From Desulfuromonadaceae bacterium (GTDB lineage Bacteria; Desulfobacterota; Desulfuromonadia; Geobacterales; Pseudopelobacteraceae): a stretch of 64,000 nt of DNA. Below the pieces are notes generated by a model, which searched no databases, was not told the origin of the DNA, and worked only from the letters and a program-made list of their open reading frames with translations. Numbering within the stretch: the stretch's first letter is position 1; every line of letters begins with the position of its first letter. The translations under genes and the position numbers were made by a program. Below are positions 1 to 61,283 of this stretch, piece by piece. Location: contig JAQTQX010000004.1 of the NCBI GenBank assembly GCA_028712075.1, forward strand, positions 1 through 64,000, read 5' to 3'.

Positions 1-1850
1 CCTCCCGCACTCGGGGCAGTGGCGCTTTCCGTGATGAGATAGCCGGTAACACCAACCGCATCGCTGGCAGCAAGGCCGGAGACCGGTACCGTTAATGAAG
101 CCGCAGTAGCGGGAAGGCTGAAACTGGTGACAGTTGGTGCAACAGCGTCCGGGAGTGTGATCGTGACTGCAGCCGAGCGGGCGGAGGATACGTTGCCGGC
201 GGCATCTTTCGCCCAGGCGTAGGCGGTTTTGGCGCCGGCTGAGCTAAAGGTGTAGCTCGTCGGTGCAGTGGCGCTCCAGCCGGAGGCGGAGGCGCTCGGA
301 GCTGATGCGCTTTCCGTAATAAGGTAGCCGGTGACACCGACTGCATCGCTGGCGGCAAGGCCGGAGACCGATACCGTCAGAGAGGTCGCAGTGGCAGGCA
401 GGCTGAAGCTGGTGACCGCAGGGGCAACGGCATCAGCGAGTGTGATGGTGACACTTGCCGAGCGGGCAGATGAGACGTTGCCGGCGGCGTCTTTGGCCCA
501 GGCGTACGCGGTTTTGACGCCGGCTGAGCTAAAGGTGTAGCTCGTCGGTGCGCCGGCGCTCCAGCCGGAAGCGGTGGCGCTCGGAGCTGATGCGCTTTCG
601 GTAATGAGATAACCGGTGACACCGACTGCATCGCTGGCGGCAAGGCCGTAGACCGGCACCGTCAGTGAGGTCGCAGTGGCAGGCAGGCTAAAGCTGGCCA
701 CTGCGGGGGCGATTACGTCAGGCAACGTAATGGTGACACTTGCCGAGCGGACAGAGGAGACGTTGCCGGCTGCGTCTTTGGCCCAGGCGTACGCGGTCTT
801 CGCACCGGCACTGGAAAAAGTAAAGCTTGTTGGTGCAGTGGCGCTCCAGCCGGAAGCCGAGGCGCTCGGAGTACTGGCTCCCTCGCTGATGAAATAACCG
901 GTGACGCCGACAGAATCAGTGGCAGCGAAGCCGGAGACCGGCACCGTCAGCGAAGTCGCTGCTACCGGAAAGCTGAAGCTGGTCACTGCGGGGGCGATTA
1001 CGTCAGGCAGCGTGATGGTGACGGAAGAGGAGCGGCTTGATGAAACATTGCCGGCAGCGTCTTTGGCCCAGGCGTACGCAGTCTTCACTCCGGCACTGGC
1101 AAAGGTGAAGCTGGCCGGTGCGCTGGCGCTCCAGCCGGCGGCTCCCGCACTCGGGGCAGTGGCGCTTTCCGTGATGAGATAGCCGGTAACACCAACCGCA
1201 TCGCTGGCAGCAAGGCCGGAGACCGGTACCGTTAATGAAGCCGCAGTAGCGGGAAGACTGAAACTGCTGACCGTTGGTGCAACAGCGTCCGGGAGTGTGA
1301 TCGTGACTGCAGCCGAACGGCTTGATGAAACGTTGCCGGCAGCATCTTTCGCCCAGGCATAGACGGTTTTGGCTCCCGCAGTGGCAAAGGTGTAACTGGT
1401 TGGTGCAGTGGCGCTCCAGCCGGATGCGGAGGCGCTCGGGGCAGAGGCACTTTCCGTAATGAGATAGCCGGTGACGCCGACAGCGTCACTGGCAGACAAC
1501 CCGTAAACCGGGATGGTCAATGCGGTTGCAGTGACAGGAATGCTGAAACCGGTGACTGCAGGTGCAGTGATATCGGGGAGCGTAATGGTGATCGAAGCCA
1601 CACGACCTGATGAGACATTTCCGGCGGCGTCTTTCGCCCAGGCGTAGGCGGTTTTCACTCCGGCACTGGCAAAGGTGAAGCTGGCTGGTGCGCTGGCGCT
1701 CCAGCCGGCAGCTCCCGCGCTCGGGGTGCTGGCGCTTTCCGTGACAAGATAGCCGGTAACGCCGACAGCGTCTGTAGCGGCAAGGCCGGAGACCGGTACC
1801 GTCAGCGAAGTTGCCGTGGCGGGGAGACTGAAGCTGATGACCGCCGGGGC
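1..1850 (-). repeat. 285-bp (95-aa) tandem Ig-like repeats, about 6.5 units in window
   Basis: e.g. 'gctgatgcgctttcc/ggtaat' at 301 and 586 (285 bp apart); 'ctcccgcactcggggcagtggcgctttccgtgatgagatagccggtaacaccaaccgca' at 2 and 1142 (1140 bp = 4 x 285). Confidence 0.9.
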
Positions 1851-3308
1851 AACGGCATCGGCAACCACATTATTTACCGTCACGGTCACTGACGACGATT
1901 GCGTTGAATTACCGGCATTGTCAAAAGCCCAGGCGTTTATCGTATACGTACCATTACTGACAGTTCTCGTATCCCAGCTGAAATTATACGGAGAAACGTT
2001 GGTAGCGTAGAGAAGCACACCGTTGCCGTAAAATTCGACTCTGGACACACTTACATTGTCACTCGCTCCGGCACTGATCGTGGCAGTTCCGCTCAGAACG
2101 GCGTTGTTTACCGGCGATGTCATGGCAACCGTCGGAGGAATGCTGTCATTTACAACCGTCACGGAGCGGCTCGACTGACTGACGTTGCCGGCCGCATCAT
2201 ACGCCTTGGCCATCAGCGTATAGGCACCGGGCGTTACTGATGACGTATCCCATGAGTAGAAATATGGCGCACTGGTCTCTGACGCTTTCAGTTGGTCATT
2301 GATAAAAAATTCAACCTTGGTGACGCCTACATTGTCAGCGGCGTCGACATTGATCGAAACAGCGCCGCTGACATTGACACCTGCGGATGGGGAGGTAATG
2401 TCAACCGTGGGAGGGGCCTGTTCCTCAATGGTCAGCGAATTTGAAAACAAACTCTCAATTCCGGCGTTATTGTATGCAGTGACCGCAAAGGTGTAGGTAA
2501 TACCGGGGTCAAGGTCGTCAATAGTTGCCGTGGTCTGATTAATGACATCCAGCGGTGTAGTACCTTCAAGTATCGTGGCTCCGGCGTTATGATACACGCG
2601 GTAACCTGCCACGTCAGATTCACTGTTCGCATTCCAGTGGAGCGAAACGCTGGAAGCCATGGCTGGAGCACTAAGGCTGAGTGAAAGTATCGCTGCAAGC
2701 ACTGATTTGACCAGCATCTTCTGAAGACGGAAACCGCTTTTGAGCTGGTCCGGCTGGACATACCCCTCTTCAAGAAGTACTTCACCGATTTTTTTGTGGG
2801 AAAATCTCTGTTTATGGAGTGCATCTTCCAACTGATCACGGGAGATATTTCCCGTGGCGATAAGCAGCTCACCAAGTCGCAATGGGCTGTATGTGGAGGT
2901 ATTGCTCTGGTTCTGCTGAAATTCGAGCAGCGCCGCAAGTTGGGGCTCCGTCAGCATGCCGAGGCGGGTAAACACATCGCCTAACCGTTCGCCGGTCCAT
3001 TTCTGCTCGGCAATGGCCCGATCAAGCTGCTCGCCGGTTATGCGCCCGGACTGAACCAGCAGGGCACCCAGCAACTGACGTTCACCGGCAGCAATCTTGA
3101 CGGCATCTCCAACAGTAGAAAGATGCTCCTGAACCTTCAGGGGAGCATCAATATCCTGTTCCTTGAGCACCCCCATCCGCACCAGAACCTGGCCAAGAAG
3201 TTCCTTGACCAGTTTTTGCTCTTCAAAAGCCAGATCAAGTTCCTTTTTGGAGATGAAACCCCCATCCAGAAATATCTGACCGATACGATGCCGTACGCTG
3301 TTTGCCAT
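1..3308 (-). CDS. Large surface protein (partial, runs off left edge): N-terminal tandem MshEN/GspE-N-like motifs, internal signal/TM segment, Fn3-like and Ig-like domains, then 95-aa tandem repeats
   Basis: Manual translation of the minus strand from ATG at 3308: MANSVRHRIGQIFLDGGFISKKELDLAFEEQ...RLGELLIATGNISRDQLEDALHKQ...KMLVKSVLAAILSLSLSAPAMASSVSLHWNANSESDVAGYRVYHNAG...; reading frame continues through the repeats to position 1. Missing from ORF track, presumably because it has no stop in the window. Confidence 0.85.
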   Translation of the reverse strand, partial: MANSVRHRIGQIFLDGGFISKKELDLAFEEQKLVKELLGQVLVRMGVLKEQDIDAPLKVQEHLSTVGDAVKIAAGERQLLGALLVQSGRITGEQLDRAIAEQKWTGERLGDVFTRLGMLTEPQLAALLEFQQNQSNTSTYSPLRLGELLIATGNISRDQLEDALHKQRFSHKKIGEVLLEEGYVQPDQLKSGFRLQKMLVKSVLAAILSLSLSAPAMASSVSLHWNANSESDVAGYRVYHNAGATILEGTTPLDVINQTTATIDDLDPGITYTFAVTAYNNAGIESLFSNSLTIEEQAPPTVDITSPSAGVNVSGAVSINVDAADNVGVTKVEFFINDQLKASETSAPYFYSWDTSSVTPGAYTLMAKAYDAAGNVSQSSRSVTVVNDSIPPTVAMTSPVNNAVLSGTATISAGASDNVSVSRVEFYGNGVLLYATNVSPYNFSWDTRTVSNGTYTINAWAFDNAGNSTQSSSVTVTVNNVVADAVAPAVISFSLPATATSLTVPVSGLAATDAVGVTGYLVTESASTPSAGAAGWSASAPASFTFASAGVKTAYAWAKDAAGNVSSGRVASITITLPDITAPAVTGFSIPVTATALTIPVYGLSASDAVGVTGYLITESASAPSASASGWSATAPTSYTFATAGAKTVYAWAKDAAGNVSSSRSAAVTITLPDAVAPTVSSFSLPATAASLTVPVSGLAASDAVGVTGYLITESATAPSAGAAGWSASAPASFTFASAGVKTAYAWAKDAAGNVSSSRSSSVTITLPDVIAPAVTSFSFPVAATSLTVPVSGFAATDSVGVTGYFISEGASTPSASASGWSATAPTSFTFSSAGAKTAYAWAKDAAGNVSSVRSASVTITLPDVIAPAVASFSLPATATSLTVPVYGLAASDAVGVTGYLITESASAPSATASGWSAGAPTSYTFSSAGVKTAYAWAKDAAGNVSSARSASVTITLADAVAPAVTSFSLPATATSLTVSVSGLAASDAVGVTGYLITESASAPSASASGWSATAPTSYTFSSAGAKTAYAWAKDAAGNVSSARSAAVTITLPDAVAPTVTSFSLPATAASLTVPVSGLAASDAVGVTGYLITESATAPSAG

Positions 3309-5906: not shown

Positions 5907-6659
5907 TTAGGCGTTTTTGCCCATGCGGCGTTTGCCGAAAACTGCAAGACCGAGCATACCCAATCCAAGCAATGCAATCGTGCCGGGCTCAGGAACCGGA
6001 ACCTCTTGATACACAACATCATTAGCACATGTTACTGCATAACCGATAATAAAGTCAGAACCAAAAGTCAAAGCACTTTGGTAGGCAGCAAAGTCAAAAG
6101 TAATGGCTGAGTTAGTCGATGTATACATAACATCCCCAATATCAGTGCTCCGACCAAAAGCTGATTCCAGAAGACCGACAGGGAGACCGGAGCGGATATT
6201 ATAATTGGCTGAACCATCAGTATTGCCACTATTAAACGGATTATAGCTGGAAAGCGCATACGTATCTGACGCATGGATAGCAATAGGGGCTGCGAACGAG
6301 TAAAGATCAAGGCTAAGGGGAGTTGATGTTTCCAAGGTATTACCCAAACCGCGTACAACGTAATCCCACGTCTGGTCAGCATTAGCATCAATGAACAGAT
6401 CACCGGAATAGACAGAATCCAGATGGGCAGCAATGCCGGCTCCCTTGAATTGTATCTGTTTCAGCGTGTAGTCATCCATTGTTACCGACGTTGAAGTAAT
6501 GCTCGGTGTACCCAGCGGATCACTTGCATTGTTCGCAGTTGCGGTCCACGTAGCCCAGTTTAAAGCCTTATCGGCGTAATCTGTGACCGTTGTTGCCTGT
6601 GCGATTTGACTAAAACCCATTGCTGCAATAAAACCAACTGCCAGTGCTGTTCTTTTCAT
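5907..6659 (-). CDS. PEP-CTERM sorting domain-containing protein
   Basis: signal peptide MKRTALAVGFIAAMGFSQIAQA; C-terminus VPEPGTIALLGLGMLGLAVFGKRRMGKNA. Confidence 0.92.
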   Translation of the reverse strand: MKRTALAVGFIAAMGFSQIAQATTVTDYADKALNWATWTATANNASDPLGTPSITSTSVTMDDYTLKQIQFKGAGIAAHLDSVYSGDLFIDANADQTWDYVVRGLGNTLETSTPLSLDLYSFAAPIAIHASDTYALSSYNPFNSGNTDGSANYNIRSGLPVGLLESAFGRSTDIGDVMYTSTNSAITFDFAAYQSALTFGSDFIIGYAVTCANDVVYQEVPVPEPGTIALLGLGMLGLAVFGKRRMGKNA

Positions 6660-7937: not shown

Positions 7938-8507
7938 TTACTCCGACAATTCAATGACTATCTTTGGCCTGAGATAGCCATCAAGCGAGCTCGGATTCGA
8001 TACTACCGTTTGATCCCAGCCCGACGCTTTAAACGTAACCGATTTTTCCAACGCCAATCGATCACTTTCCCCAATAACGGCACCAGCACGCATCACACAT
8101 GTCATACGTGCCATTTCACCCGGGCCGAAACCGGTTTGAGCCGTAGATCCGTCTGTAATCACAATCGACAACATGTTGGCAGAATAGGTGCCAAATAGTA
8201 ATGAAGGCCCGGATACAACAGCGGCAACCGCACTTCCCGGAGTCAACCCGCCCGAAATCAAGCCGTTATCAGCCGTCGTCACATCAAGAGCGGAAGGCAG
8301 CGGGGCAATCAACTGTACGCCGTTTATCCGAAATGGAAGTCGTGCCGTACTCACAAGTGAAAACGAAATAGTCGCCCTGGAGAGTGCCCCGTGCATGCCG
8401 CTCTCAGGCGCACCACCGCTGCCACAGCCACAGACAAGCGCCACTATAAAAAAAACGGTCAGATGTACGAACGTTCTCGCCACGCTGGCTCCCCTTCCTG
8501 TTACCAC
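7938..8507 (-). CDS. Lipoprotein with cohesin-like domain (GTG start)
   Basis: N-terminal hydrophobic segment ending LVCGCGSG; beta-rich sequence ...ISFSLVSTARLPFRINGVQLIAPLP...GLISGGLTPGSAVA...GPGEMARMTC resembling cohesin/CBM-type folds. Confidence 0.55.
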   Translation of the reverse strand: MVTGRGASVARTFVHLTVFFIVALVCGCGSGGAPESGMHGALSRATISFSLVSTARLPFRINGVQLIAPLPSALDVTTADNGLISGGLTPGSAVAAVVSGPSLLFGTYSANMLSIVITDGSTAQTGFGPGEMARMTCVMRAGAVIGESDRLALEKSVTFKASGWDQTVVSNPSSLDGYLRPKIVIELSE

Positions 8508-9298
8508 GTCAACTGGCCAACCGATCTACGAAGAATTACAATGACATCATCAATATCTACCCTGCCGTCGGGACTCGATTGTCGGGTTATCATGTCAAGA
8601 GGTGCGACATCAAGACGAGTAAAAAGCTCCATTGTCAGAGTTTCCAGACCAAGAACGTATCTGAGTGACAAGAGAGCATCGTTAAGCGTGCTGTAGCCGG
8701 TTACGTTAAGTCGAATATCCGATGACTGCGTCATATTGCCGGCAATATCATATGCAACAGCAAATACAGAATAGCTTTTTTCCTGTATTTCTGTTGGCCT
8801 CAGGGTGAAGTCAAATGGGGCCGTTCGCAAAGTGTCGTGAAGCACACTATCAACATAAAATTCTACCCTGGCAATGCCACCGGCATCAACAGCACTGACA
8901 CTCACGACAGTATTTCCTGTGGTGGTTCCATTATTCTTCGGAGAGATAATCGAAACAACAGGGGGAATTATGTCGTAAATCACGACAACATCTGACAGGA
9001 GGCTCTCAATGCCGGCTGTATTGTAAGCCGTCGCAGCAAGAGAGTAATTCAAAGCAGGATCAAGTCCGGTAAGAGTCACCGCTGTTGCAGTATGGACATC
9101 AATTGGTGACGCCCCCTCTGCAGCCCCGACTCCAGCAAAAGGCGCATCAGCTAATCCAACCTTATAATGGATTTTATACCCCTCAAGATCCGCCTCAGAA
9201 TTCGGGGTCCAGTGAACTGAAACATCGCGTGCGAAGCACAATGAATGTGTGAGAAACAAGAAAATGCTTGCCAGTAATAACTTTAAGCCACAATTCAT
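8501..9298 (-). CDS. Secreted Fn3/Ig-like protein with C-terminal dockerin-like segment
   Basis: signal peptide; VHWTPNSEADLEGYKIHY Fn3-like; Ig-like VSIISPKNNGTTTGN...VEFYVD; C-terminal ...YVLGLETLT...DVAPLD...SPDGRVDIDDVIVILRRSVG. Confidence 0.65.
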   Translation of the reverse strand: MNCGLKLLLASIFLFLTHSLCFARDVSVHWTPNSEADLEGYKIHYKVGLADAPFAGVGAAEGASPIDVHTATAVTLTGLDPALNYSLAATAYNTAGIESLLSDVVVIYDIIPPVVSIISPKNNGTTTGNTVVSVSAVDAGGIARVEFYVDSVLHDTLRTAPFDFTLRPTEIQEKSYSVFAVAYDIAGNMTQSSDIRLNVTGYSTLNDALLSLRYVLGLETLTMELFTRLDVAPLDMITRQSSPDGRVDIDDVIVILRRSVGQLTW

Positions 9299-33926: not shown

Positions 33927-34580
33927 TTACTTCCCCACATAGCGGTAAAATTCGGGATAAAAGCTGTTGACAAAATCCAAAGCTCTTTTCTTGGCAATTT
34001 CTGAATTGTTGCCTTCCATTCTGGTGCTCACCCTGACGAAAGCATTTTCTTCCCGGGGGTTATTTCGCAGGCGCTGCCAGAGCATCTGAACCTTCTGATC
34101 AAATGTTCCGGAGGACGTAGTGTTGTTTGTCTGGAACCAGTAGAGTATGTACTCTTTGTCGGATTGCTGTTCGGCAACCATGGTGGAATAGTTTATTATA
34201 TGGCTGCCCGGACTAGGGAGTTGATATGTTCCCTTCCCCCGCTCTGCGATACGCCACCCCTGCCCGGTGAAACAGACGAGCGGATCATGAGCGGAACCAA
34301 CCTTGGCGGCGCTCCGGTAGTAGCCGATATACAGGGATACGGTGTCGTTGTCACGTCTGTAGGTTTTGAACAGATAATCATCAAGTTTAAGTGCCTCTTC
34401 GATATTTGCTCCCATTGATATATTCGGAGAGGCGTTCCAGCCAGGCAGCGAATCAAGGGCATTTCTTAAAGGCTCTTTGGTCGTTTGCTGAAGCTTGTTT
34501 ACGGAAGAGTTGACAAAAATTGCTACCATAAGGAGTAACGCTGCCAGCAGCACAATTTTGAGAATACTTACTTTTCGCAT
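33927..34580 (-). CDS. epsI: EpsI family exosortase-associated protein
   Basis: SLPGWNASPN...DYLFKTYRRDNDTVSLYIGYYRSAAKVGSAHDPLVCFTGQGWRI...YWFQTNN; lies next to exosortase. Confidence 0.88.
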   Translation of the reverse strand: MRKVSILKIVLLAALLLMVAIFVNSSVNKLQQTTKEPLRNALDSLPGWNASPNISMGANIEEALKLDDYLFKTYRRDNDTVSLYIGYYRSAAKVGSAHDPLVCFTGQGWRIAERGKGTYQLPSPGSHIINYSTMVAEQQSDKEYILYWFQTNNTTSSGTFDQKVQMLWQRLRNNPREENAFVRVSTRMEGNNSEIAKKRALDFVNSFYPEFYRYVGK

Positions 34581-35431
34581 TTTGCCAATCCTTTCTGAAA
34601 AATGATAAAGAACACAAAACCCAGCGCAAAAACAAGTAATCCAAGAATTGTATGCGGCGTCCCCTCGGTAAGATTGAACTTGAAGTAGTTATAGGCAATA
34701 ACCATGGTAAATACCCTGAAGATATTGACGGCAATTGCGATCGGAACTCCGGCGACAACCAGAATCAAACGCAGGAGCGACGAACGGAGCGTGAAATAGC
34801 CCAATATCGCTCCCAGTGTAAGCATGGTCATGATCGATCGTAGTCCGCTGCACGCCTGTACAACCTGAAAAGTCATATCTGAGAGATGGATGACGTTGCC
34901 TTCCCGATAGATGATAACACCCATCATTGAGGCCAGGGAAACGGTTATTTTGGTGACGATAAACTGCAGTGGATTAGTCAATGCCGCGAATATCTGCTCC
35001 GGCACCGGTATCATAAAGATCAGAAATAAAAGCGGAAAAGAGCAGATCCGGAACATTTTGAATCCGAAAAAAAATATCACCGCACTCCAGATGAATAAGA
35101 TCAAGGAAATTGGTGGCAGCGTAAGAACAGAGCCGAATTTTCCGAGCAGGAACAAGAACAGTGCAAAAAGTGCCAGCGGCAGGCCGAACCAGGAACCTTC
35201 AACCGGCTGTGCGACAAGCGTACTGCGGTTCTGCCATAAAATGTACGCTGACAGCGGAAGTATCAGAAAACCATGCGAATAGTCGTCAGAACCGTTCCAG
35301 GCTTTTACCAGACCGCTGAGAACCGGATAATACACCGCTGCAAATGCAGCAAACAGGAGTACCCAGACAATTATTCTGACTGGTTCTTCCAGCCGGTTTT
35401 TGTTTACCTGCACACTCATATTATTCTCCAT
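34568..35431 (-). CDS. xrtA: Exosortase A (XrtA/EpsH)
   Basis: SDDYSHGFLILPLSAYILW; catalytic VVQACSGLRSIMTMLTLGAI; GVPIAIAVNIFRVFTM; GTPHTILGLLVFALGF. Confidence 0.94.
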   Translation of the reverse strand: MENNMSVQVNKNRLEEPVRIIVWVLLFAAFAAVYYPVLSGLVKAWNGSDDYSHGFLILPLSAYILWQNRSTLVAQPVEGSWFGLPLALFALFLFLLGKFGSVLTLPPISLILFIWSAVIFFFGFKMFRICSFPLLFLIFMIPVPEQIFAALTNPLQFIVTKITVSLASMMGVIIYREGNVIHLSDMTFQVVQACSGLRSIMTMLTLGAILGYFTLRSSLLRLILVVAGVPIAIAVNIFRVFTMVIAYNYFKFNLTEGTPHTILGLLVFALGFVFFIIFQKGLAKCEK

Positions 35432-60563: not shown

Positions 60564-61283
60564 TTACACAGATTTCTTTCTTCTCCAGAATGCCAGTCCG
60601 GCAATGCCACCGCCAAGAAGGAGCATGGTTGAGGGCTCAGGAACGGGGGCAACTGTCAACTTCCAGTCTTCAACTTCTCCCTGATACCAAGTACCAGTGG
60701 CAGTCAAGTTGCCGAGGTTGCTTCTGATGTCTGCACTACATACCACCTGTGCTCTCAACCAGTAATCAGTGAGACTGGTACTAGTCGGCATAACGACATC
60801 CGTATAGAAAGATTTGCTGACACCTGCAAAAGAATCATTCTTATGATAACCACTTTCACTTTCAAAATGCCATACGTCCGCAAAAATGGTTTCGCCACTA
60901 TCGGTAAAATCTTTGTCACCGTTCCAGTCTATCCAGACTTTGATTGCATCAAAATCGTGAATACCCCACTCTTCCTTGTACATATCAAACCTAAATTTAA
61001 CGGTCTGCCCTGCCGTAATAACAGCATTCCCCCAAGTTGCACCATTATCGACAGACCAGAAGACTCCGTCATCTGAGGAGTCAATCGTCTTTGAACTCGA
61101 TTCCGCATCCCACTTCGTGCCAAGTCGCTGCCATGAAGCATTTTGATGTCGTGCCATACCATAGCCAGTGGCATCGCCGTAATCGTATTGCGTTGCCAAA
61201 GCATCACTGGAATAACCAACTGACAAGGCAAGCACAAACATAAGAACAAAATAGCATCCGAAAATAGCGGTCGTACACTTCAT
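60564..61283 (-). CDS. PEP-CTERM sorting domain-containing protein (GEVED-like)
   Basis: signal peptide; DFDAIKVWIDWNGDKDFTDSGETIF; VPEPSTMLLLGGGIAGLAFWRRKKSV. Confidence 0.92.
   Translation of the reverse strand: MKCTTAIFGCYFVLMFVLALSVGYSSDALATQYDYGDATGYGMARHQNASWQRLGTKWDAESSSKTIDSSDDGVFWSVDNGATWGNAVITAGQTVKFRFDMYKEEWGIHDFDAIKVWIDWNGDKDFTDSGETIFADVWHFESESGYHKNDSFAGVSKSFYTDVVMPTSTSLTDYWLRAQVVCSADIRSNLGNLTATGTWYQGEVEDWKLTVAPVPEPSTMLLLGGGIAGLAFWRRKKSV

Follow-up and report, generated by a model that had tools for sequence, protein, structure and literature searches.

The DNA window analysed, the first 64,000 nucleotides of a contig (JAQTQX010000004.1, here C3) from a Desulfuromonadaceae bacterium, begins with a minus-strand open reading frame of 1102 codons that runs without interruption from an ATG at position 3308 to the window edge, as the preliminary description had read it. 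The window edge is also the start of the contig, so the gene (3..3308, 1102 readable amino acids) is truncated. Its first part is composed of three MshEN_N-type units, namely unit 1 at 3129..3287 (residues 8-60), unit 2 at 2916..3074 (residues 79-131), both motifs of which fit the extended c-di-GMP consensus, and unit 3 at 2721..2879 (residues 144-196), the most conserved unit in the family. This cassette is followed on the same strand by a signal-peptide segment KMLVKSVLAAILSLSLSAPAMA (2655..2720, residues 197-218) with a predicted cut after AMA, by a fibronectin type III (Fn3) domain with which the passenger starts (2430..2654, Pfam PF00041, 2.7e-10), by two Big_7 Ig-like domains (1875..2417, borders approximate, Pfam PF17957, 3.5e-36), and by 95-aa Ig-like repeats (22..1856, period 285 bp, 6.4 copies) that run off the contig end. 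All parts of the succession seen earlier, a signal segment followed by Fn3, Ig-like domains and 95-aa repeats, were recovered. Its Fn3 and bacterial Ig-like domains (Pfam) and the nature of the locus point to the passenger being a surface adhesin.

The gene lies in an exopolysaccharide/exosortase locus, and its remainder is probably found at the end of contig C5 (locus L048, 6938-8038, 366 aa), where the same 95-aa repeats come to an end. No exact sequence overlap was found between C3 and C5; the join is proposed because of the identity of the repeats and of a gene order in common with locus L127, in which, as behind the C5 part, a small lipoprotein, a UDP-sugar dehydrogenase, an epimerase and PrsK are encoded. 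A cassette-less paralogue, used here for comparison and lying outside the fusion, is located at 8501..9298 on the minus strand, and displays an ordinary signal peptide, Fn3, Big_7 and a dockerin-like C-terminus. The genes with dockerin-like ends (8501-9298 in the window and 6938-8038 in L048) each directly precede a gene for a small lipoprotein or secreted protein (7938-8507 in the window and 5538-6869 in L048) that may carry a cohesin-like domain, and a dockerin-like gene with its cohesin-like neighbour is possibly a surface-anchoring pair. The dockerin resemblance on contig C5 was seen by eye, with no match in Pfam or the PDB, and the cohesin identity of the downstream lipoproteins, which likewise looked likely by eye, was not confirmed. 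The same window encodes an exosortase (34568-35431) and two proteins with PEP-CTERM-like ends, of which one (5907-6659) was confirmed by Pfam and the other (60564-61283) was not.

The preliminary description had noticed at least four copies of an MshEN-like motif in the N-terminal region; the repeats are present, in six copies and three regular units. The 24-residue MshE motifs, which start at residues 8, 37, 79, 108, 144 and 173 within residues 8-196, are paired three times with a 5-residue spacer in each pair, giving three 53-residue units, and such a spaced pair is what defines the MshEN_N c-di-GMP site (PMC5013675). The motifs conform to the pattern [RKL]LGxx..G..L...L..Q. The MshEN-type identity suspected from the motif was borne out by profile searches: the NCBIfam model NF053729 (c-di-GMP motif, MshE-related) matched the window protein in three stretches with E=4.6e-44, and a profile of the family searched against the PDB retrieved PilF (3e-23) and MshE (2e-11), the nearest solved relatives being the traffic ATPases PilF, PilB and MshE. 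The Pfam MshEN model PF05157, which spans 90 positions compared with the 53-residue unit found here, reported no match on the window protein. In an AlphaFold model of the cassette (mean pLDDT 72.5), which consists of helices only, the units display the four-helix bundle fold of MshEN_N; local superposition on 5htl, 8pdk and 8pfa, among them the c-di-GMP-bound structures of PilF-GSPIIB and MshE, gave 0.7 A for a stretch of approximately 50 residues (probability 0.98-1.00), the E-values of these matches being weak because the matched stretch is short. Since the model contains helices only, the beta-sheet subdomain MshEN_C is absent, and the cassette was rejected as a full T2SSE_N domain. Membership among the T2SS/type IV pilus ATPases was rejected as well, Pfam finding only Fn3 and Ig domains and the C-terminal ATPase domain being absent. 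In Vibrio cholerae MshE, MshEN_N binds c-di-GMP alone, without MshEN_C (PMC5013675).

The same architecture was sought in other genomes and found in 70 distinct cassettes, each in one open frame through the junction into its passenger. The cassette was present in 23 of 58 genomes of close relatives, in 41 of 141 at the level of the order, in 42 of 277 at that of the class (only one of these outside the order), and in 13 of 396 sampled genomes of the phylum, 11 of the 13 belonging to other classes. Named carriers in the scan include Geobacter sp. OR-1, several Geomonas, one Pelobacter MAG and two Nitrospirota MAGs, bearing in mind that MAG assignments may err. A second cassette in the genome under study shares 62% identity with the first and precedes a c-type cytochrome. 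The dN/dS values of approximately 0.02-0.2 are alike in cassette, junction and passenger, and the 70 distinct open frames under purifying selection rule out a frameshift, assembly or annotation artefact. The fusion of MshEN-type domains in one frame with an exported, adhesin-like protein, as first proposed from this single gene, is therefore real and recurrent. A broken form was seen in Geomonas oryzae, where two near-identical contig regions (L163 and L164) carry a cassette that breaks off after residue 163 and has neither signal peptide nor passenger behind it.

Scoring of the contact residues in the 70 cassettes with the consensus from PMC5013675 and its extended form in PMC11731258 showed intact c-di-GMP contact residues for unit 2 in 38 cassettes and for unit 3 in 50. 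By these residue rules, 54 cassettes possess at least one intact unit and 16 have none that is fully intact. Unit 1 is degenerate in 68 of 70, and position 1 of the motif is degenerate in most relatives; all three units of the window protein carry permitted contact residues. In units 2 and 3, the columns for Gly, Leu and Gln vary little or not at all across several classes. The first 196 residues or so are best read as three putative MshEN_N c-di-GMP-receptor units. MshEN-like motifs also occur elsewhere in the same genome (L010, 967-1833), followed by a region that by eye looks CheX-like.

Counted from the last cassette residue in the 70 cassettes, the junction displays an alanine at position +22 in 49 members and Ala, Gly or Ser at +20 in 58, behind a charge-free hydrophobic core with a median length of 16 residues. 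Four members have a lipobox cysteine at position 20-22 (including LAGC, LTGC and MEGC), LAGC and LTGC being textbook examples. The sequence features of a Sec signal peptide, i.e. a positive end of the n-region, a hydrophobic core and an AxA or lipobox, are all found. A shuffled-tail test for AxA was not discriminating (52 observed against a shuffle mean of 47) because the region is rich in Ala and Ser, and the case for a cleavable signal is carried by the fixed position of AxA and by the lipoboxes. At 8501-9298, the paralogue begins with an ordinary signal peptide that aligns with the fused one and ends at the same place relative to Fn3. A plain transmembrane segment spanning the membrane, as originally envisaged, gives way to a segment predicted to act as a cleavable signal peptide. 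It had also been proposed that an internal start at ATG 2717 yields a secreted isoform; a related reading takes the upstream 197 codons as separate or spurious. This ATG is present, and in 48 of the 70 relatives an ATG lies no more than six codons from the junction; however, in the other 22 there is none, the start at 2717 has no Shine-Dalgarno sequence, and Shine-Dalgarno matches amount to 0-4 bases at the junction compared with 4-6 in most cases at the first start, which makes two isoforms unlikely. Together with the lack of any stop between cassette and passenger in the 70 frames and the purifying selection acting on the cassette itself, this leaves a two-gene or two-isoform reading barely credible. 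The observations named beforehand as speaking against the fusion (no MshEN match, a frameshift between 2717 and 3308, or homologues that always start at 2717) were not encountered.

Six kinds of passenger, all extracytoplasmic, are found behind one and the same cassette: the Fn3-Big-repeat adhesin (A), a c-type cytochrome with three CxxCH motifs (B), a CAP domain (C), a lipoprotein with a fold of no recognised type (D), a beta-sandwich of approximately 145 aa resembling a chaperone-usher pilin subunit (E), which is the most widespread, and a beta-helix lipoprotein (F). The model of the pilin-like kind resembles the PapG pilin domain, CfaB and a P-pilus-type subunit with a probability of 0.97 and a TM score of only about 0.4; its genes lie within chaperone-usher clusters at L105, L118, L155, L157 and L162, in the last case directly between the chaperone and the usher. 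The passenger kind changes at least seven times on the cassette tree, the minimum possible being five, far fewer than with shuffled labels, and cassette and passenger are mostly co-inherited with some exchange. The adhesin and the pilin-like passengers also occur without cassette, behind ordinary signal peptides, which marks the cassette as an add-on. The preliminary description had called the fusion unusual and considered that it could be a one-protein adhesion switch: the fusion itself stands, and instead of being tied to a one-off adhesin the cassette proved to be portable, combined with passengers of six kinds.

In relatives, the same loci are associated with c-di-GMP-I riboswitches. In L125, L126, L127 and L131, of which three have closely related cassettes, one such riboswitch stands 48-121 nt ahead of the cassette gene. 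In L154, L155 and L157, it is the pilus operon adjoining the cassette gene that has tandem riboswitches in front of it. Geomonas has riboswitches before cassette-less Fn3 paralogues beside the cassette gene, which itself has none. As there are just 4-23 c-di-GMP-I riboswitches per genome, the clustering at these loci is strong. Members of one passenger family consequently come with the RNA sensor, the protein cassette or the two combined, as would be expected if the cassette brings c-di-GMP control. The genome under study has only four c-di-GMP-I riboswitches, on contigs C10 and C23, and none was found upstream of or near the window gene, even with a permissive threshold. Loci with riboswitches around cassette genes, Fn3 paralogues or chaperone-usher operons comprise L125-L127, L131, L142, L143, L145-L149, L153-L155 and L157; in L153 (6979-8489), two tandem c-di-GMP-I riboswitches precede a 421-aa gene that has no relationship to the cassette and lies beside a cassette-cytochrome gene.

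Several known systems share part of this organization. As in the LapD/LapG/LapA system, in which cytoplasmic c-di-GMP sensing acts through a periplasmic protease on a giant adhesin, the fate of an adhesin would be decided from the cytoplasm; there, three separate proteins are involved, whereas here sensor and adhesin form one preprotein. To judge by their placement upstream, c-di-GMP-I riboswitches control the same passenger family in relatives, at the RNA level, whereas the target of the cassette would be the completed preprotein. V. cholerae MshE (PDB 5htl; PMC5013675) has the same 24-residue motif pair, 5-residue spacer and 53-residue four-helix c-di-GMP site, with a fold match at 0.7 A; compared with MshE, the cassette lacks the ATPase and MshEN_C, has three units in a row, and leads into a signal peptide with an exported passenger behind it. 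Thermus thermophilus PilF, with its GSPII-A/B/C (PDB 8pdk, 6f8l; PMC11731258), likewise has three consecutive domains and allows Lys or Leu at motif position 1, but is a cytoplasmic pilus ATPase whose GSPII domains each have a C-terminal subdomain. In NfrB-type glycosyltransferases (PMC8669469), to whose NfrB/PRK15489 models the cassette gave partial matches, MshEN is joined to a biofilm-matrix function and acts from the cytoplasm as the regulator of a membrane enzyme, whereas here it precedes the product's own signal peptide. The MshEN fusion partners given by Wang et al. (PMC5013675), their supplementary architecture tables aside, are ATPase, glycosyltransferase, REC, HD-GYP, CheA, CheX, cyclase and kinase, and exported passengers are not among them. 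The literature searched, apart from those 2016 supplementary tables, in which a precedent may be listed, contained no description of MshEN ahead of a signal peptide.

We propose, with about even chances of being right, that the cassette is a cytoplasmic c-di-GMP receptor that gates the export or release of its own passenger. This model infers the membrane topology, the cleavage, the binding of the ligand, and the gating together with its direction. The three four-helix MshEN_N units would constitute the receptor in front of the Sec signal peptide, at which the preprotein would enter the membrane in an N-in/C-out orientation. Signal peptidase I (signal peptidase II in the lipoprotein members) would then cut behind the signal peptide and release the passenger, which in the present case is a long adhesin of Ig repeats produced next to an exopolysaccharide/exosortase locus; the cassette would remain inside the cell. 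The c-di-GMP occupancy of the cassette would determine if insertion or processing of the preprotein takes place, or at what rate, and c-di-GMP would in this way gate the export of one surface protein after its synthesis. In favour of gating are the MshEN identity, the contact residues, the real fusion, the signal features, the modularity and the riboswitch association in relatives; against it are the degenerate unit 1 of most members, the cassettes without an intact unit and the lack of a riboswitch at the window gene.

The main rival, which we consider unlikely, is a preprotein whose signal stays uncut, with MshEN inside, the passenger in the periplasm, and c-di-GMP altering passenger activity across the membrane in a LapD-like manner. 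A large N-terminal cytoplasmic domain, a single membrane segment and a periplasmic domain constitute a known topology (CadC, ToxR), and cytochrome and CAP passengers could function while anchored in the membrane. Such a tether is at odds with the AxA at a fixed position and the lipobox members, with a core of about 16 residues that is short for an anchor, and with the ordinary signal peptides that cassette-less homologues have at the same place; moreover, neither the pilin-like subunit encoded between chaperone and usher in L162 nor a repeat adhesin of more than 1000 residues would be of use if membrane-bound.

Two further readings change the role of the cassette. The MshEN units may lead the preprotein to a T2SS or type IV pilus platform or to the cell pole, c-di-GMP only tuning the process, given that the closest solved relatives PilF, PilB and MshE are traffic ATPases and that the same domain docks in GspE/PilB. 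We hold this to be improbable: pilin-type passengers lie in chaperone-usher operons with their own outer-membrane route, and no T2SS or pilus gene appeared among the shared neighbours, viewed incidentally and not in a targeted search. The cassette may, finally, have lost ligand binding and serve in targeting, stability or dimerisation only, as XpsE provides a precedent for an MshEN domain without binding (PMC5013675), and as the 16 cassettes without a fully permitted unit and the near-general degeneration of unit 1 would suggest; this is less probable still, because units 2 and 3 retain their contact residues and conserved columns across several classes. Returning to gated export, its extension to a portable, second-messenger-gated export signal, put to repeated use with adhesins, pilus subunits, cytochromes and lipoproteins across two or more phyla, is a tentative proposal, to which we give somewhat less than even chances.

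Cyclic di-GMP is the bacterial 'settle down' signal, and it is known to control surface proteins through transcription, riboswitches, secretion ATPases and adhesin-releasing proteases. If the proposal is true, a different control point would be added, the export step of one chosen protein, with the receptor built into the preprotein ahead of the signal peptide and swapped among unrelated passengers; in laboratory strains, the cassette could be used to place a protein's export under c-di-GMP control. The family also adds candidate c-di-GMP effectors, c-type cytochromes included, in the metal-reducing Geobacterales, where extracellular electron transfer is linked with biofilm formation. That one and the same predicted sensor precedes six or more kinds of exported protein, unrelated to one another, in related bacteria suggests that these cells may use c-di-GMP to time the exit of such proteins.
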